A stretch of DNA of 23,545 nucleotides from the IMG/VR virus record IMGVR_UViG_3300048837_000386, positions 1-23,545 of that record; one strand, 5' to 3'. Below are positions 1-21,600 of this stretch, one piece after another; position 1 is the first letter of the stretch, and the number at the start of each line of letters is the position of its first letter. The notes beneath the pieces were generated by a model. That model did not search any database. It worked only from the letters and a program-made list of their open reading frames with translations, and was not told the origin of the DNA. Made by a program: the position numbers and the translations under genes. The stretch is from a virus.

Positions 1-86
1 AAATTGAAAAACGATTCGTTTTCATATAGATACGACGATAAAACAGATTCTTCAACATCGACATTGAACAATTTTTCGGTTGACAT
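1..86 (-). CDS. DnaB-like replicative helicase, N-terminal fragment (runs off window)
   Basis: Only the first 28 codons lie in the window. The translation begins MSTEKLFNVDVEESVLSSYL and continues YENESFF. The pattern D-x-E-x-S-V-L-x-x-x-L is the start of the DnaB N-terminal domain, which in hexameric 5'-3' replicative helicases forms the collar that meets primase and loader. The ATG overlaps the stop of the upstream 85-aa gene (TAATG), so the two are translationally coupled. The gene order organizer - small loader-like protein - helicase is common in phage replication modules and supports the call. The helicase core lies outside the window, so ATPase motifs cannot be checked. Confidence 0.72.
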   Translation of the reverse strand, partial: MSTEKLFNVDVEESVLSSYLYENESFFN

Positions 87-343
87 TAGAAGTCCCTCGG
101 AGCCGGTTCAAGAATTGGATAGCTTGTTTCTTCTTTGATTTTACGCTGTGTCTCGAAAAAAACACAGATGGCCGGGAAATAACGCTCTGAAAGGATGATT
201 CGTTCGCAGATATCGACGAATTCGTCATCTTTGAAATCTTTAAGATGCTTCCAGTATTGATCCAAACGCTTTTCAGAAAGTTCTTTCAGGCCATATGTTT
301 CAAAAAGATCGGTAATACATGATTCAAAGGTTTTTTCTTCCAT
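86..343 (-). CDS. Small phage helicase loader-like protein
   Basis: This 85-aa acidic, helical protein sits between the replisome organizer and the DnaB-like helicase. Its core (YWKHLKDFKDDEFVDICERI, then a segment containing FPAICVFF) has the feel of small phage helicase loaders and inhibitors of the G39P type, which bind the replicative helicase and deliver it to the origin. Family membership is inferred mainly from size, position and this helical pattern; there is no catalytic motif to confirm it. The start is close behind the organizer stop (349), and its own stop overlaps the helicase ATG. It could also be an unrelated small accessory protein. Confidence 0.5.
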   Translation of the reverse strand: MEEKTFESCITDLFETYGLKELSEKRLDQYWKHLKDFKDDEFVDICERIILSERYFPAICVFFETQRKIKEETSYPILEPAPRDF

Positions 344-348
344 GGAAT

Positions 349-1125
349 CTATCCCTTAAAGTTGAATTTTAGTTTGTTTTGTGTTTCTTTATTCCTTGGT
401 ATTGAAAAATCATCGTCACTAAATTCATCTTCCCATCTGCGCTGATTTAAAAAAGTTGAAGCAAGCGGGATATATTGTTTATTCTGCCATTTGTTTGTTT
501 TTTTATGTATTTCAATTGAATCAAGAATAGTTTTTAATGTTGGGCGTGGCGCTTTTATTTTTTGATATGCTTTATATGCTGCTCCTATACCCTCCCTTTT
601 CGGATATGCTTCCCAAAATTTCAAAAATGATTCTGGATAATCCCCCTTCACATTTTGGTCTGATTCGTGAGAATCAGATAATATATCATTCTTTCCATTC
701 TTTTCTTTCTTTCCATTCTTGTCTGTCTTCGGTCCCGTTTCGGTCCCGTTTCGGTCCCGTTTCGGTCGTGTTTCATAACTGTTACGCTTTGGATCATATG
801 ATGAATAATTCAATATAGTTATGCGTGTTGTAACTGTTTCGTTTTTATAACGGATTTGATTCATTTTTGCAAGTAAATCAAAAAATCTTTTGACCTTTGC
901 CTCGCCCCAACCCCAACGTGATCCCCATGTTCGAATGCTTTTTAGGCTTTCACCATAACCGCTTTTAAAAACTCGCATTTTTATAACAACATCTTTTTCT
1001 GTCTCACAATGTTGGGCCTCCATTAACATGTCAACCCATGCTTCAAATTTTGAATATTGTCTTTTTTCCTTATAGAATGCATGATCCTGTATTTTTCGCC
1101 ATATAGCGATATATCCACGGTCCAT
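349..1125 (-). CDS. Phage replisome organizer / replication initiator (lambda O-like architecture)
   Basis: This 258-aa protein probably binds the phage origin and recruits the helicase. Residues 1-110 look like the winged-helix N-domain of phage replication proteins: an opening MDRGYIAIWRKI, an aromatic segment FEAWVDMLMEA (27-37), and WGSRWGWGEAKVKRFFDLLA (67-86), where an HTH reads as W-x-W-x-x-x-K-V-x-x-F. Residues 111-160 are a hydrophilic Lys/Asn/Gly/Asp linker. Residues 165-235 (FLKFWEAYPKREG, then HKKTNKWQNKQYIPLASTFL, ending in RRW) match the C-terminal segment seen in many phage replication proteins. The DNA of the linker carries four 11-bp direct repeats, a purine-rich tract and a palindrome, listed separately as a candidate origin. 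The helicase loader and helicase follow directly. Confidence 0.78.
   Translation of the reverse strand: MDRGYIAIWRKIQDHAFYKEKRQYSKFEAWVDMLMEAQHCETEKDVVIKMRVFKSGYGESLKSIRTWGSRWGWGEAKVKRFFDLLAKMNQIRYKNETVTTRITILNYSSYDPKRNSYETRPKRDRNGTETGPKTDKNGKKEKNGKNDILSDSHESDQNVKGDYPESFLKFWEAYPKREGIGAAYKAYQKIKAPRPTLKTILDSIEIHKKTNKWQNKQYIPLASTFLNQRRWEDEFSDDDFSIPRNKETQNKLKFNFKG
659..678. repeat. Perfect 8-bp-arm inverted repeat in candidate origin
   Basis: TCTGATTC and GAATCAGA flank a 4-nt spacer (GTGA on the plus strand). It lies inside the replisome organizer gene, just beyond the AT- and purine-rich tract that follows the iterons. It is placed like the palindrome that ends lambda ori. It could equally form an mRNA hairpin. 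Confidence 0.6.
679..774. other. Candidate replication origin: four 11-bp iterons plus purine-rich/AT-rich tract
   Basis: Four directly repeated 11-mers lie head to tail at 731-741, 742-752, 753-763 and 764-774. The plus-strand unit is GGTCCCGTTTC; the fourth copy differs at two bases (GGTCGTGTTTC). The period is 11, not a multiple of 3, so the repeat is read in successive frames and the protein is not periodic. That argues for selection on the DNA. About 11 bp is one helical turn, so bound initiators would line up on one face. Next to the array, 688-730 is almost all pyrimidine on the plus strand (purine on the coding strand) with a repeated CTTTCCATTC, then ATATAT. An initiator gene containing iterons, an asymmetric AT-rich tract and a palindrome is the known layout of lambda ori. 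Confidence 0.62.
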
Positions 1126-3117: not shown

Positions 3118-3708
3118 TTACATTTTTTCAAAGATTGAAGGGGCATGGTCGGCCAGGATGTTATTGATTTCAATGGCAATAGGCCGGATCTGAGGATGTG
3201 CCGCTTTTGAACTTCTGAGATTTACAAAATGGAGAAATTCCCGAAAATTGGCCGTCATAGCAAGCTCTGCGGCTGTGCAATTTGGCAAAACAGATCTTGC
3301 TATTTGTGGTGAACATCCAGTTGATAAAAGCTTTTTATATTTTTTTTCAGAAAAAACACACGCTTCTATCCATTCTCTCCGTTGTTCTTCGTTTAAATCT
3401 GGAGGCTCAATAAATGGGACATCGTCTTTGTATCGTATATATCTTGTTGATGACATGCTAAATGAAGCAATTCTGTGCCTTACAATTTCCATACATATTG
3501 CCCTATCAGCTACAATTTTAAATGATGCATTGGCGTGTTCGATGACAGAATGGTGACCAAGACGGATCAGTTTTGATATGAATTCATGAGCTGAATTTTC
3601 CGTCATTTTATCATATGACCCCCAACAAATCCGGCCGTGTTTTTCAATGAGACGTTCTGGGTTTTCGGTCACGCTTTCAAGTTTTACAGATTGACTCAAT
3701 ATCTTCAT
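3118..3708 (-). CDS. thyX: Flavin-dependent thymidylate synthase ThyX
   Basis: ThyX methylates dUMP to dTMP using methylene-tetrahydrofolate, FAD and NADPH, and so supplies thymidine nucleotides for phage DNA synthesis. The 196-aa sequence is full length for the family. The signature RHRxxS is present as RHRIASFSMSSTRYIRY (77-93), including the S-x-x-S-x-R-Y extension. The FAD- and dUMP-binding helix GHHSVIEHANASFKI (51-65) and the C-terminal block ARSVLPNCTAAELAMTANF (137-155), followed by H-x-x-N-L-R-S and H-P-Q-I-R, are intact, so the enzyme should be active. The ATG overlaps the stop of the upstream homing endonuclease by 4 nt. The N-terminus MKILSQSVKLESVTENPERL is echoed at the start of that endonuclease (see findings). 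Confidence 0.96.
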   Translation of the reverse strand: MKILSQSVKLESVTENPERLIEKHGRICWGSYDKMTENSAHEFISKLIRLGHHSVIEHANASFKIVADRAICMEIVRHRIASFSMSSTRYIRYKDDVPFIEPPDLNEEQRREWIEACVFSEKKYKKLLSTGCSPQIARSVLPNCTAAELAMTANFREFLHFVNLRSSKAAHPQIRPIAIEINNILADHAPSIFEKM

Positions 3709-4411: not shown

Positions 4412-4672
4412 TTATTTTAGTATTGAAACAAATGCAAGGGCAAAAGAAATAAAGACAAGTAAAATAGAAAGTGGCCTTGTATTGTGAAGATATCCATCAT
4501 CGAATCCCTGAGAATATCCTTCATGGAATCCCTTGTTGTATGCGTCTTTAAGCATTTCAGGAGATGCGGATATAAGCCTGGCTTTTATGGCCTGCAAATG
4601 CTCCCATTCATCAGGCGTCCCATTGTATCTTTTCAGCAGCTCTTCGGCGTATTGTAATACTGTCTCGTTCAT
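4412..4672 (-). CDS. Small membrane-anchored protein
   Basis: The 86-aa protein has a soluble helical N-terminus (MNETVLQYAEELLKRYNGTP), a Gly/Tyr-rich centre (GFHEGYSQGFDDGY) and one hydrophobic C-terminal segment (PLSILLVFISFALAFVSILK) long enough to cross a membrane once. It would be tail-anchored in the inner membrane with its N-terminus in the cytoplasm. It is not a recognisable holin: there is only one segment and no endolysin nearby. Its central D-A-Y-N-K is shared, at DNA level as well, with the next gene upstream (4980-5000), which may be chance or a trace of exchange. It overlaps that gene's end by 4 nt. Confidence 0.55.
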   Translation of the reverse strand: MNETVLQYAEELLKRYNGTPDEWEHLQAIKARLISASPEMLKDAYNKGFHEGYSQGFDDGYLHNTRPLSILLVFISFALAFVSILK

Positions 4673-5049
4673 TTCAGTTTATCTCCTGTTTGTTGGTGAA
4701 TAATTTTCCTTCCCATGTTCGACACACGCACAATGTTGTACGCCTTAAAATCTTCATGACCATCGTGCCAGTACGCAAAAGCAAATTCTCTTGCGTGGTG
4801 CAAGTGTCCAAACTTGCGAGTTTCGTTTTCTCCATAGTTCACGATGTAATACTTCGCCCTATCCAAACTACGGCAATGCTCGTAGTCAGCACGTTTCATT
4901 CCGCAATTTTCACAAACCCATCCACTTTTCCAATGGTGCCGCTTACACCTTATTTTCGGCAATGGTATTTCCATAAAATCCTTGTTGTATGCATCTTTGC
5001 GGATCTTATGGCTTTTCATTGTTGTAAAATCATGATCATCGTCGGTCAT
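4669..5049 (-). CDS. Hypothetical protein with small zinc-binding motif
   Basis: The only clear motif in this 126-aa protein is HHWKSGWVCENCGMKRADYE with a later H-C, in which H, C-x-x-C and H-C could hold one zinc ion. This H-x-W-x(4)-C-x-x-C type of knuckle recurs in small phage proteins. The rest is mixed alpha/beta, with an aromatic-rich stretch (FGHLHHAREFAFAYWHDG) and no catalytic signature I know. A GAGG site is 7 nt or so upstream of the ATG. It overlaps genes on both sides by 4 nt, so it is part of the early operon. Confidence 0.5.
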   Translation of the reverse strand: MTDDDHDFTTMKSHKIRKDAYNKDFMEIPLPKIRCKRHHWKSGWVCENCGMKRADYEHCRSLDRAKYYIVNYGENETRKFGHLHHAREFAFAYWHDGHEDFKAYNIVRVSNMGRKIIHQQTGDKLK

Positions 5050-5519: not shown

Positions 5520-5885
5520 TCACCTCATTGTCTTTGATTTTAAGAACATTATTTCGTCAAACCCATACCTTTTAATTGGTATATCATGTTTGACGCAAAA
5601 GTCAATCTCCTTCTTGATTCCCTTTGATTCTTCCCAGCCGTCAAGCTCGATGATCCACATTTCATCTGCCCATTTTTCAAGGAATGTCACATCTTGTTTC
5701 AAATAAAAATCTGTTTCAGTCGGATTCCCGATATAGTTTGAAATCGTATGGCTATGGGCTATCGGTGAAAATACGGTATATCCGCATTCCATTAGAACAC
5801 CTGCGACATGGCAGATGCTCTGGAATCGTGTTTCGCGTATCGTGCGTGAATCATGGCTGTATGGGCTTGCAAGGTAAATGTTCAT
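5520..5885 (-). CDS. DUF1937 family protein (nucleoside 2-deoxyribosyltransferase-like fold)
   Basis: The protein is 121 aa. It opens MNIYLASPYSHDSRTIRETR, and continues VAGVLMECGYTVFSPIAHSH, then EKWADEMWIIELDGWEESKG and EIDFCVKHDIPI. That order (Y-L-A-S-P-Y-S-H, L-x-x-G-Y-x-V-F-S-P-I, D-E-x-W-x-x-x-x-D-G-W-x-x-S-x-G-x-x-x-E) is the DUF1937 layout, a branch of the nucleoside deoxyribosyltransferase-like fold. Members are often in phages and are thought to work on nucleotides or related metabolites, but no activity is established that I can cite. ThyX nearby makes a nucleotide link plausible. It overlaps the methyltransferase stop by 4 nt. Confidence 0.8.
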   Translation of the reverse strand: MNIYLASPYSHDSRTIRETRFQSICHVAGVLMECGYTVFSPIAHSHTISNYIGNPTETDFYLKQDVTFLEKWADEMWIIELDGWEESKGIKKEIDFCVKHDIPIKRYGFDEIMFLKSKTMR

Positions 5886-7801
5886 ATGATTTCCTCTCCA
5901 AATAAATCAAGTTGTTTTGGTCTGTTTTCGACTTGCATGAGATGTTTCACGGCGTGTTTATAATATGATTCTTTAAGTTCAATACCTATATATTTTCTTC
6001 CCATTAAAAGAGACTGATAACCTTCAGACCCTATTCCACCAAAGGGGCTTAAAACGGTATCGCCTTTGTTTGTCCATAATTCAACGCAACGGGCTATTGT
6101 TTGTAGTTGTAGGGGACAATTTTTAACAATACACCCCTCAGCCGTGTAAGATTCATCATCAAGAACTCTAATATTCCACACATGAGAAAAACCAGCATCT
6201 TGAATTTTTGACACTCTTTTCCATGCCCCATCTTCAACAATTTTCCCGAATGAATGATGTGCATTATCCTTAGGAATAAGCATTATCCATTCTTGTCTTT
6301 TATAGACTTTTCTTCCTTCAATGATTTTATACCCGGGTTTTCTTCCTGGGTAAATAGATACAATCTTGTTTTTGCATCTTTGAATAACAATGGACATTCC
6401 AAGCAAAAGAGCCCTTGAGACAGAAGTAGCATGTGTTTTTCCATGTTTATCTACATGGCCATCGCCTGATAAATAACCTGACAACAAAAATTCCGATTGT
6501 CTTTCATTCAAACAAATGCCCTCAATAGGGACATGTTTCTCGTGGGCAAGTTTTCCGCATTTTTCAAGGATTGTTTTCAAATTGTTTGAAACTTTTTTTA
6601 ATCTGAATTGAGTTGAATTGCCTATGATATGTTTATTCCCAAAAAAATCAATCCCAACATTGTCTTCAAACTCCTGATATTTGTGGTTCCCAACACTTAT
6701 GAAAAAATCATTTCGTGTTCCGACATGGCCATCCGCAAGAAACCGACCCACTACCCACCATTCTCTATCCGTCAAAATTTCTTCACTTATTACAGGTGGA
6801 AGTTTTTGATTCACATAGCACTTTTCAAGATCTTTAGCGTCTTTCCATTCGGGGTCATTAAACTTCTTTGTTGGATGATATTTATATTGCAAAGATCTTG
6901 ACCATATTTTATGTGTAGGAGTTGTTATAAGATTAGGTACGCCAGTGGCTTTAGTCCTTACAACCTCTTTGAATCCAGTGTACTCCTTGGCTATAACGGG
7001 TTTCCAGTCCCCATTGTGTGTTAGTACAAGATCCCCGATGTTTATGGATTCGATAGATTTAAAACCTTCGTTTGATAAAACAAGGGAACCTTCAGAAAGA
7101 CAAATATGCCTCTCATCTTCCTTGTCTCTTGCCATTCTATAATTCAAAGTTTTTGTTTGGTCAATGTCAAGCCAGATGGGATCAGCATATCGTCGCCAAA
7201 CATTGTGACTGTATTTTATCCCTTTTTCTGTAGGTTCATTTTCTCCATGGAATGATTCGAACCCATTAGGATGTCCAATCCTTTCAGGATTTTCTCCGGG
7301 CTTTCTGAACGTGCAAATATAGTCTGGGAGACCTTGGCGACACATGGAGCTGTCTTTCTGGATTTGTTTGTGCATAAGACCAAGAGATTTTGTTCTCGTG
7401 GCTTCAATCAAGGGGTCTTTCCAAATACAAACTTCTGAGTGATATATAAAACCAGCCTTTTGAAACAACCGGATTATATCACCCCTGAAATCTTTTAGCC
7501 CAATCACTCCGTCTCTTTCTTTCATACTTGGAATATTCATACAATGCACAGAAACAAGACGTCCATTCATGATAACACGGTATAGATCGTTTACAAGAAA
7601 TGAAAAGTGGGTATTAAATTCTTCATCAGTTTTGCAATTTCCCATATCTCTATCAGAATTTGAATATGTGAACAACGACGCGAACGGGGGCGAGAAAATT
7701 GAATAATGGATTGAATTGTCTGGTATTCCCTTTATAACCTCAACGCAATCTCCGTGATACATTGCAAAGTTGTCTGTAATTGTTTGATCGATTATTTCCA
7801 T
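5882..7801 (-). CDS. DNA methyltransferase (amino-methylating, permuted class) interrupted by a LAGLIDADG intein
   Basis: The 639-aa product is a 311-residue methyltransferase split by a 328-residue intein (C234-N561). In the host protein, motif IV is FSPPF (36-40), followed by ASLFTYSNSDRDMGN, while motif I (SPFGGIGSEG, 585-594) comes at the C-terminus. This order (IV before I) defines the beta-type amino methyltransferases; the SPPF tetrapeptide is compatible with N4-cytosine or N6-adenine. Extein segments such as VSVHCMNIPSMKERDG, QKDSSMCRQGLPDY and DERHI/CPLQLQTI are typical of phage enzymes encoded beside a SNF2-like helicase. The intein sits between I233 and the Cys of CPLQ, in a very conserved block. 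The gene starts 2 nt after the helicase stop. It probably marks phage DNA against host restriction. Confidence 0.92.
   Translation of the reverse strand: MEIIDQTITDNFAMYHGDCVEVIKGIPDNSIHYSIFSPPFASLFTYSNSDRDMGNCKTDEEFNTHFSFLVNDLYRVIMNGRLVSVHCMNIPSMKERDGVIGLKDFRGDIIRLFQKAGFIYHSEVCIWKDPLIEATRTKSLGLMHKQIQKDSSMCRQGLPDYICTFRKPGENPERIGHPNGFESFHGENEPTEKGIKYSHNVWRRYADPIWLDIDQTKTLNYRMARDKEDERHICLSEGSLVLSNEGFKSIESINIGDLVLTHNGDWKPVIAKEYTGFKEVVRTKATGVPNLITTPTHKIWSRSLQYKYHPTKKFNDPEWKDAKDLEKCYVNQKLPPVISEEILTDREWWVVGRFLADGHVGTRNDFFISVGNHKYQEFEDNVGIDFFGNKHIIGNSTQFRLKKVSNNLKTILEKCGKLAHEKHVPIEGICLNERQSEFLLSGYLSGDGHVDKHGKTHATSVSRALLLGMSIVIQRCKNKIVSIYPGRKPGYKIIEGRKVYKRQEWIMLIPKDNAHHSFGKIVEDGAWKRVSKIQDAGFSHVWNIRVLDDESYTAEGCIVKNCPLQLQTIARCVELWTNKGDTVLSPFGGIGSEGYQSLLMGRKYIGIELKESYYKHAVKHLMQVENRPKQLDLFGEEII
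6119..7102 (-). mobile_element. Intein with LAGLIDADG homing endonuclease domain inside the methyltransferase
   Basis: The 328 codons run from Cys (residue 234) to Asn (561), followed by an extein Cys. Block A is CLSEGSLVLSNEGFKSIE. Block B is GVPNLITTPTHKIW with T-x-x-H. Two dodecapeptides mark the endonuclease: VVGRFLADGHVG (350-361) and LSGYLSGDGHVD (440-451). Block F is VWNIRVLDDESYTAEG and block G is CIVKN before the +1 Cys. The penultimate residue is Lys instead of the usual His. The flanks close seamlessly as DERHI-CPLQLQT, a natural methyltransferase sequence. It should be both a self-splicing protein and a mobile element. Confidence 0.93.
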
Positions 7802-19182: not shown

Positions 19183-21600
19183 TTACTCCATGTTTGTTTC
19201 GGCCCGAATTGCGTATATATCTCTATCTGGGTCGTTAGAAATAATGATTTGGTCATAGCTGCCGCCCTCTGGGGATGAAGGTAGAGATACTGCCGCCCCA
19301 ACCGATACGGTGCCATTCTCAGTAGCGCCCGTCATGGCAGTATATTGTCCGATTTCAGAAAGAGATTGTGACACTCCATTAATCATTATTCTTACTCCTG
19401 TTACCCCATATGAAAACTCAACGTAATATGAGGTGGAGGGGGATATTCCAGCCGTAAAATATGCTTGGTACGTAACGCCATCCCCTTTCCACAAAACTTC
19501 TAATCCAGAATTTCCACGGTTCCGAAGCCGGACATAGTTAGTTGCATCATAGGCAGCTTCAAAATACGTGGCATCATCCGTTATTGTCGATCCTGTTGTA
19601 ATCCATAAACCAACTCGTCCCCCATCACGGTCAAAAATTGCATCTGATGTGTTAGTCCATTGCACACGGTCATACGCCGACGACGTGTATTTTGCACTAT
19701 ACGACCCGGCCAGTTTTGGGCTTGTTTGGTATGTAAGAGTTGATGTCGTTGCTGTAAGTCCGGCAGGCTTATCAGCGGTTGACGAATTTTCAGCACCCCA
19801 GTAAAGAAGAATATCTGAATAATCCACGCCAGTCTGTGTGCTGTTGTTCGTAACACTCGCACTCGGTATAGAGGCAAGATCAACCCCATCGTCCGAAGAT
19901 TCAAAGCCGTTTGTCGGCTGGGTGTATGAAACAGTCGGCGTGTCTGTTGACAAGATTGTCGATGCAAGATTGAAAACAATCGTGTCTGTTCCTGACCCAC
20001 TTGCGTAGGTCATCGCGTTTGATGGATTGTTGAGCGTCCAGCCGCCAGATCCGCCAGCCCCAAATGAAACAGCCTCTGAAAATACGGCGGTTGCTGTATC
20101 ACCACTTGATGGAATTGTTAGACTTGTTAGTGTCGGAACCGTCGGTGCTGGACTCATGCCAGCCCAAGTAACCGCAAATTTATCCCATGATCCGTTTTTG
20201 TGAGCATAAAAAAAACTTTCATCCCACGAATATTGACCATCTGTTCCCGGATCATCTGAATAGGTCGGCGGCGAGACATAGCCAGCGGCTCCAGAAACCC
20301 CAGATATAAGCTCTTGAATTTTCGATGATGAATAGGTGGTTGTTAAAGCCGATGAAGAGTCGTCGATTTCAAGGAAATCTTTTTCAACGCCATTTTCTGA
20401 ATATTTTAATTGACCGGCTTCGTTGTATATTTCCACAAGGCCAGTGCCCGGTGTTTTTGATGTATTCTCTGGAAGGATTATTCCACGGTCGCCATCTGCC
20501 GCGCTTGATGTATATTCGGAAGCGCTTAAAGTAGTGAAATACCCGATGCCAGGAGTTGTTCCGCCTATTGTCCCTGGGGAGGCTGGATCAAAAACAGTGG
20601 GAAACCATGACTCATCTGTAAAAAGACCATCTCCGTCTGAATCAAAGTTGAACATATAATCACGGAATGAGTTTTTTGTGACAGCCGTATTGACTCCATC
20701 CCATGTTGACACATTGTATGCCGAATCTGGGAAAGCCCATGTCCCGGTTATTGTTTCAGATTCGTTCGCCTTTGTTATATCGGAGTCAGCATCTTCTTTT
20801 AATCCGAGAGCCGTTGAAATTGCGAGTGTTGTAGCATATTTAGTATTATCCGGCGTTGTTAGATCAGTAGCTTTGTTTGATGTGTTTTCAGGCGTATAAC
20901 CTATATTCGCTTGTTTTTCTCCATCGAGTTCTGCTATTGCTCCTTGTACTGTTGTAGCCTCAATGTTTCCATCCGGTGTAAATGAAACAGCGTCAGCGGT
21001 TCCTGTCGGATTGACCCATTGGGTATCATAGTCCGTTTCGGTTTTTTTGGATAAAATTTGCCCCGTTGTGCCTCCGGCTGGAACTCCGATTCCATCCGCA
21101 CCAGCCGGGCCGGTGTCCCCGGTATCGCCCTTCGGACCCTGTGGGCCGGTGTCCCCGGTGTCACCCTTCAACCCCTGAGGGCCGGTGTCCCCGGTGTCAC
21201 CCTTCGGGCCTTGGGGGCCTGTGGCACCAGTTGGCCCAATAAGAGATATAGGGCCCGTCCCCGTCCAAGAACCGGATGTTTTCGGCCCATAGTATGCACT
21301 TGACACCGTATCAAGGTAATAATCGCCATCATTTCCTGTCGCGTCCGAAGGTGCGCCAGATCCGGATAGCCATGTATTTATAGACCCGCCAATTTCCCCA
21401 ACAAGATCCTCAATGATATCGCCAAGAGAGAGCCTAAAATAAGCATTTGGGTTTGAAGAGCCAAGAGATCCGCCGAGAGATGGGCGATATACAGGAACTT
21501 GGTCTGTTGTTTGAGCATCTGTTCGAACAGTATTTGCCGTTCCAGAAAAGCAGATTGACGGAATCAATACTAACAAGATTAAAAGGGCTAATTTTCTCAT
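19183..21600 (-). CDS. Large fibre protein with signal peptide, collagen-like segment, Ig-like and LamG-like domains
   Basis: The protein is 805 aa. MRKLALLILLVLIPSICFSG is a Sec signal with the same P-S-(I/V)-C-F end as the next gene. A linker (TDAQTTDQVPVYRPSLGGSL) leads to a collagen-like segment at 122-170, made of Gly-X-Y triplets in units such as GPQGPKGDTGDT, three times over. Collagen trimers are typical phage fibre stalks. The middle part has repetitive tail-fibre motifs (VQGAIAELDGEKQANIGYTP, then NKATDLTTPDNTKYATTLAI). An Ig/SWM-type domain (~490-590) and a LamG-like sandwich (~605-800) follow, both fit for sugar binding. This should be the main host-binding fibre, or a cell-surface protein given its signal. 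Confidence 0.7.
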   Translation of the reverse strand: MRKLALLILLVLIPSICFSGTANTVRTDAQTTDQVPVYRPSLGGSLGSSNPNAYFRLSLGDIIEDLVGEIGGSINTWLSGSGAPSDATGNDGDYYLDTVSSAYYGPKTSGSWTGTGPISLIGPTGATGPQGPKGDTGDTGPQGLKGDTGDTGPQGPKGDTGDTGPAGADGIGVPAGGTTGQILSKKTETDYDTQWVNPTGTADAVSFTPDGNIEATTVQGAIAELDGEKQANIGYTPENTSNKATDLTTPDNTKYATTLAISTALGLKEDADSDITKANESETITGTWAFPDSAYNVSTWDGVNTAVTKNSFRDYMFNFDSDGDGLFTDESWFPTVFDPASPGTIGGTTPGIGYFTTLSASEYTSSAADGDRGIILPENTSKTPGTGLVEIYNEAGQLKYSENGVEKDFLEIDDSSSALTTTYSSSKIQELISGVSGAAGYVSPPTYSDDPGTDGQYSWDESFFYAHKNGSWDKFAVTWAGMSPAPTVPTLTSLTIPSSGDTATAVFSEAVSFGAGGSGGWTLNNPSNAMTYASGSGTDTIVFNLASTILSTDTPTVSYTQPTNGFESSDDGVDLASIPSASVTNNSTQTGVDYSDILLYWGAENSSTADKPAGLTATTSTLTYQTSPKLAGSYSAKYTSSAYDRVQWTNTSDAIFDRDGGRVGLWITTGSTITDDATYFEAAYDATNYVRLRNRGNSGLEVLWKGDGVTYQAYFTAGISPSTSYYVEFSYGVTGVRIMINGVSQSLSEIGQYTAMTGATENGTVSVGAAVSLPSSPEGGSYDQIIISNDPDRDIYAIRAETNME
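21091..21237 (-). repeat. Collagen-like Gly-X-Y coding repeat
   Basis: Codons 122-170 of the 805-aa protein encode Gly-X-Y triplets. Three 36-bp units (21112-21219, each GPQG-x-KGDTGDT) are nearly identical in DNA, so they arose by recent duplication and can change in number. The region is GC-rich against the AT-rich genome, as Gly/Pro codons require. Confidence 0.85.

Follow-up and report, generated by a model that had tools for sequence, protein, structure and literature searches.

The closest described counterpart of the locus studied here is that of phage SPP1, in which gp38 binds the direct repeats of oriL (inside gene 38) and of oriR, with an AT-rich unwinding element at each site (PMC6316719). 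A 350-bp SPP1 fragment, 35,801-36,151, has been used experimentally as oriL (PMC5615212), and the distance between oriL and oriR has been given as about 13 kb (PMC6316719) and as 12 kb (PMC3485210). In phage 80alpha, the origin was inferred to be embedded in ORF20, which encodes a gp38-like initiator, and deletion of ORF20 was not complemented in trans (PMC5499656). The replisome organizers of lactococcal phages TP901-1 (ORF13) and Tuc2009 (Rep2009) bind direct repeats within their own genes (PMC8965321), and resemble the present system in this respect. Two further phages have an origin of comparable layout: oriL of P1 lies inside repL, an initiator gene holding its own origin with a different initiator (RepL), and its replication is inhibited by synonymous changes in the AT-rich stretch (PMC9948254), while lambda ori, with iterons and an AT-rich tract in the middle of gene O, resembles the arrangement reported below (PMC7466680). 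The element described here is of a known kind: intragenic origins of the SPP1 type, in which the initiator gene harbours direct repeats next to an AT-rich unwinding element, are already documented.

The initiator gene and its neighbourhood

We analysed a stretch of 23,545 nucleotides of viral DNA (the window). It corresponds, in reverse complement and with 99.98% identity, to bases 1609-25153 of a 53,935-bp IMG/VR contig (L004), hereafter the parent contig. The features of the region are listed in Table 1.

Table 1. Features in and around the initiator gene of the window
Feature	Position	Strand	Basis or remark
DnaB-type replicative helicase gene, start only; runs off the window	1-86	-	Full gene at L004 4763-6010, DnaB_C 7e-74
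85-aa ORF between initiator and helicase, in the position of the SPP1 gp39 loader (likeness by place)	86-343	-	
Gene of the 258-aa initiator (replisome organizer), with an N-terminal domain like that of SPP1 gp38	349-1125	-	phrog_270 2e-22, phrog_2514 5e-19
Initiator C-terminal domain, aa 165-238	412-633	-	Helical in AlphaFold model; exchanged between relatives
AT-rich stretch adjoining the tract, possible extension of the predicted unwinding element	674-690	unassigned	Sequence
Purine-rich 9-bp-periodic tract (AAGAATGGAAAGAAAGAAAAGAATGGAAAGAATGA), predicted unwinding element	686-720	-	Repeat analysis; found in relatives and in oriR-position copies
Iteron array	731-774	-	Four head-to-tail 11-bp units; predicted initiator binding sites
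Winged-helix DNA-binding domain, aa 8-110	796-1104	-	Modelled by AlphaFold; mean pLDDT per block mostly 85-97
Recognition helix and N-cap, aa 74-87	865-906	-	Helix itself aa 75-87; covariation of aa 74-76 with the repeat unit

Both the window initiator and SPP1 gp38 matched phrog_2514, and by tblastn the window initiator matched SPP1 gene 38 at 36.6% over aa 3-128 (5e-14). The AlphaFold model of the initiator, built with 31 aligned sequences, shows a winged helix with high confidence (aa 8-110), then a linker with low confidence (about aa 115-164) and a helical C-terminal part; according to this model, it is the predicted disordered linker that is encoded by the iterons and the A-rich tract. 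A sequence search of solved structures and a PDB fold search returned generic winged helices only (best fold E about 0.05), and thus gave no structural model of binding.

The C-terminal domain of the window initiator is unrelated to that of SPP1 gp38. Even for the relative L104, with 66% N-domain identity, a C-terminal match to the window initiator was undetectable, and such a match at E<=0.01 was absent in 2,819 of 3,204 pairs (which are non-independent) with at least 50% N-domain identity. Between the initiator of the window (C-terminal part at 349-633) and its relatives, the C-terminal domain is swapped while the winged helix and origin stay, and the linker has the look of a joint at which recombination took place.

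On the parent contig, the initiator is followed downstream by the phage's own replicative helicase, with one short ORF between. Unlike SPP1, the window phage has no recognisable gp39 loader; 80alpha and its relatives encode a DnaC-like loader, whereas the window phage encodes its own helicase. Elsewhere in the window, the phage carries a ThyX-type thymidylate synthase (3118-3708; Thy1, 6e-49) and a DNA methylase gene (5882-7801) with Hint and LAGLIDADG matches, which is probably interrupted by an intein. A 36-bp tandem repeat (21107-21223) encodes a collagen-like GPQGPKGDTGDT stretch within the large ORF 19183-21600, the product of which is probably a tail-fibre-type protein.

The iteron array and the adjoining tract

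The 11-mer GGTCCCGTTTC occurs in three exact copies (731-741, 742-752 and 753-763), followed by a fourth with two changes, GGTCGTGTTTC (764-774); on the gene strand, the units read GAAACGGGACC three times and then GAAACACGACC. This array occupies nt 352-398 of the initiator gene. Tandem Repeats Finder reported period 11, 3.6 copies and 100% matches at 728-767, in agreement with the original prediction of an 11-mer repeated four times head to tail, the last copy with two changes. The period-11 score was 31; across 150 simulated windows from a Markov model, no score at periods 10-12 exceeded 14, and synonymous recodings of the initiator gene gave a maximum of 27, with none of 20,000 reaching 31. 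A search of viral contigs with an exact 22-mer matched the parent contig alone. The encoded peptide had been described as non-repetitive; strictly, it repeats every 11 residues (33 nt), but only about 1.3 periods fit into the 44 nt (ETRPKRDRNGT-ETGPK).

Directly 3' of the array on the gene strand, we detected a second periodic element that was absent from the original prediction, of the AAGAATGG type with a period of 9/18 bp (about 686-720). The AT-rich stretch next to it contains a palindrome at 678-689. The 60 nt past the array of the window are 70% AT, compared with 64% in the gene, a modest enrichment; in relatives, the corresponding values are 74.8% and 62.5%. Within the tract, AAT encodes the second Asn of each triplet in 297 of 337 instances, versus 655 of 1,016 elsewhere, suggesting that the tract too is constrained as DNA.

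The GC skew of the 54-kb parent contig gave a cumulative curve that climbs along nearly its whole length, and the detrended curve showed no turn at the array, so that the skew lends the proposed origin no support. The absence of such a pointer would suit an array that is mainly an autoregulatory operator, by which the initiator limits its own transcription or blocks RNA polymerase, with the origin elsewhere; an initiator bound within the gene that encodes it could form a roadblock, and both roles can coexist. We nevertheless consider this unlikely, because origin function has been demonstrated for the homologous element of SPP1 (PMC6316719), the 80alpha homolog was not complemented in trans (PMC5499656), and the adjoining AT-rich tract and the downstream helicase suit initiation and not an operator.

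Comparison with SPP1 and other origins

For the comparison with SPP1, we used a 44,010-bp IMG/VR record (G003), which corresponds to SPP1 with matching oriL coordinates, together with the relative 049ML003. The SPP1 array lies at 35,937-35,980 (units at 35,937, 35,948, 35,959 and 35,970), within the oriL fragment 35,801-36,151. Units and tract occur once more from 4,876 onwards; counted through the ends of the record, this copy is 12.95 kb away from oriL, in keeping with the distance published for oriR. In 049ML003, matching units and tract were found near the oriR position, between two annotated genes (gap 4,469-4,803). Since repeats and tract are kept where no gene is annotated, they are DNA elements and not by-products of the protein. 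In the same phage (L176, 35330-35359), a short repeat of 10-bp period (TTAGAAACAG) is located upstream of the two genes preceding the array.

The window shares with SPP1 the homologous N-terminal domain of the initiator, the 11-bp direct repeats between the DNA-binding and C-terminal parts (nt 360-403 of the SPP1 gene and 352-398 of the window gene), the periodic A-rich tract directly 3' of the array, and the downstream helicase gene. The unit itself differs, being GAAACGGGACC in the window but AGAAACGACA[G/C] and GAAAAAGACAC in SPP1. The initiator genes examined from staphylococcal phages other than 80alpha also contain 11-bp arrays, with units of the ACATCAAAAC or AGAAAAGACAC type, unlike those of the window. 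A search of the parent contig, which may be incomplete, for a second array with at most one mismatch detected only three exact units, all inside the array; an oriR-like second site as in SPP1 was thus not found in these 54 kb, nor is it required of an oriL-type origin.

Lambda iterons are 18-19 bp long, and the 11-bp period of the window is shorter. A lambda-type ori was rejected, as the window protein has no O-like PHROG or Pfam match, the period is 11 bp and the homology is to SPP1. The shortened or variant lambda design proposed in the original prediction is accordingly replaced by that of SPP1 oriL and gp38, to which homology and period both correspond.

Spread among relatives and covariation with the recognition helix

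We collected 102 non-redundant relatives of the initiator from viral contigs, bacterial and archaeal genomes and phage records, with 234 ORFs from the same loci as controls, and called an array at a period-11 score of at least 11. An array was present in the linker region, just past the winged helix (about nt 340-400 of the gene), in 66 of the 102 relatives, and elsewhere in the initiator gene in none; only 1 of the 234 control ORFs had one. Period 11 exceeded synonymous recoding (p<0.05) in 78 of the 102 relatives, compared with 1 of 102 for period 13. Some relatives have a 12-bp period or alternate between 11 and 12. Among further held-out relatives, 44 of 67 carried arrays. At the thresholds used, 25 of the 102 relatives, including the fairly close L029 and L031, had no clear 11- or 12-bp array, suggesting that exact periodicity is not essential everywhere. 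A separate 11-bp array (TGTCCATGTGA; L144, 1233-1272) lies upstream of the initiator gene of one relative, and is possibly another binding site.

The closest relatives of the window, the comparison of which had been proposed beforehand, differ in unit and linker peptide, while place and period remain constant. This finding, together with the recoding tests and the copy at the oriR position of SPP1-like phages, supports well the predicted selection on the repeats at the DNA level. The polar, Lys/Asn-rich character of the linker is kept in relatives and the 9-bp period of the tract keeps step with the codons, as would be expected if selection acted on a basic, Asn/Lys-rich peptide and the DNA repeat were a by-product. 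We give this explanation hardly any credence: the 11-bp signal is lost on synonymous recoding in the window and in most relatives, the linker peptide differs between close relatives with the period unchanged, and the tract prefers AAT at the second Asn codon.

The T content was 5.3% in 11-bp arrays and 11.3% in 12-bp arrays (p 0.004), compared with 24.9% in the genes. The 11- and 12-bp arrays had similar densities of stop triplets, and the sign of stop avoidance is therefore the low T content. With a period that is not divisible by 3, successive units pass through every reading frame and have to avoid stops in each, which likely explains the T-poor units; binding specificity itself could favour them as well.

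We then compared the similarity of units, irrespective of rotation, with identity at window residues 74-76, corrected for identity in the rest of the domain. The partial r was 0.355 for the 66 arrays and 0.492 for the independent set of 44 held-out arrays, neither value being reached in 2,000 permutations, which leave part of the phylogeny uncorrected. That the correlation recurs in the held-out set speaks against an artefact. In unguided column scans, the two best columns were G74 followed by A76 in the first set, and E75 followed by G74 in the held-out set; in the structural model, the covarying residues 74-76 stand at the start of the recognition helix (aa 75-87). These results suggest that the repeats of each phage are matched to the recognition helix of its own initiator, and lend good support to the original prediction that the repeats would be binding sites for the product of the gene in which they lie.

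The units within the array are nearly identical, as after a recent duplication, and the linker is predicted to be disordered, both of which would also suit a neutral minisatellite generated by replication slippage in a tolerant region. Such an origin of the repeats is highly improbable, since most relatives, over many phyla, have different units but share their place and their odd period, periods divisible by 3 would be expected from neutral slippage in a linker that is translated, and the units both covary with the recognition helix and recur in the annotated non-coding gap of 049ML003.

Constraint at the DNA level, conserved position and period, the adjoining tract, the copy at the oriR position and the unit-helix covariation are all present in the sequences. 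From these, the four repeats are very probably the initiator-binding iterons of a phage replication origin, located inside the initiator's own gene in the design of SPP1 oriL. The N-terminal winged helix would bind each 11-bp unit via its recognition helix, and units spaced by about one helical turn would align the protomers along a single face of the helix. The resulting nucleoprotein complex would then open the A-rich tract of 9-bp period that adjoins the array 3', and the DnaB helicase encoded just downstream may be loaded with the help of the initiator's C-terminal part. As the iteron DNA encodes a disordered linker, it could change at little cost to the fold.

On a broader scale, we lean slightly towards the view that a large, cross-phylum initiator family carries a portable intragenic origin cassette, composed of the winged helix, helical-turn iterons and periodic A-rich tract, joined to unrelated C-terminal domains, in which iteron and recognition helix coevolve by a readable code. 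Family-wide spread and unit-helix matching were not found in the open-access papers searched; older work on SPP1 oriL may already describe parts. One stretch of DNA would serve as both protein code and predicted binding-site array, the non-triplet period forcing the units to be readable in three frames. An 11-bp array just past the winged helix of a gp38-like initiator provides a rule for locating origins in uncultured phages, and the unit-helix covariation makes origin specificity directly testable. If true, the origin sequence of a phage would be predictable from, and matched to, about three residues of a helix, and this matching may bear on phages, satellites and plasmids that share or compete for an initiator.
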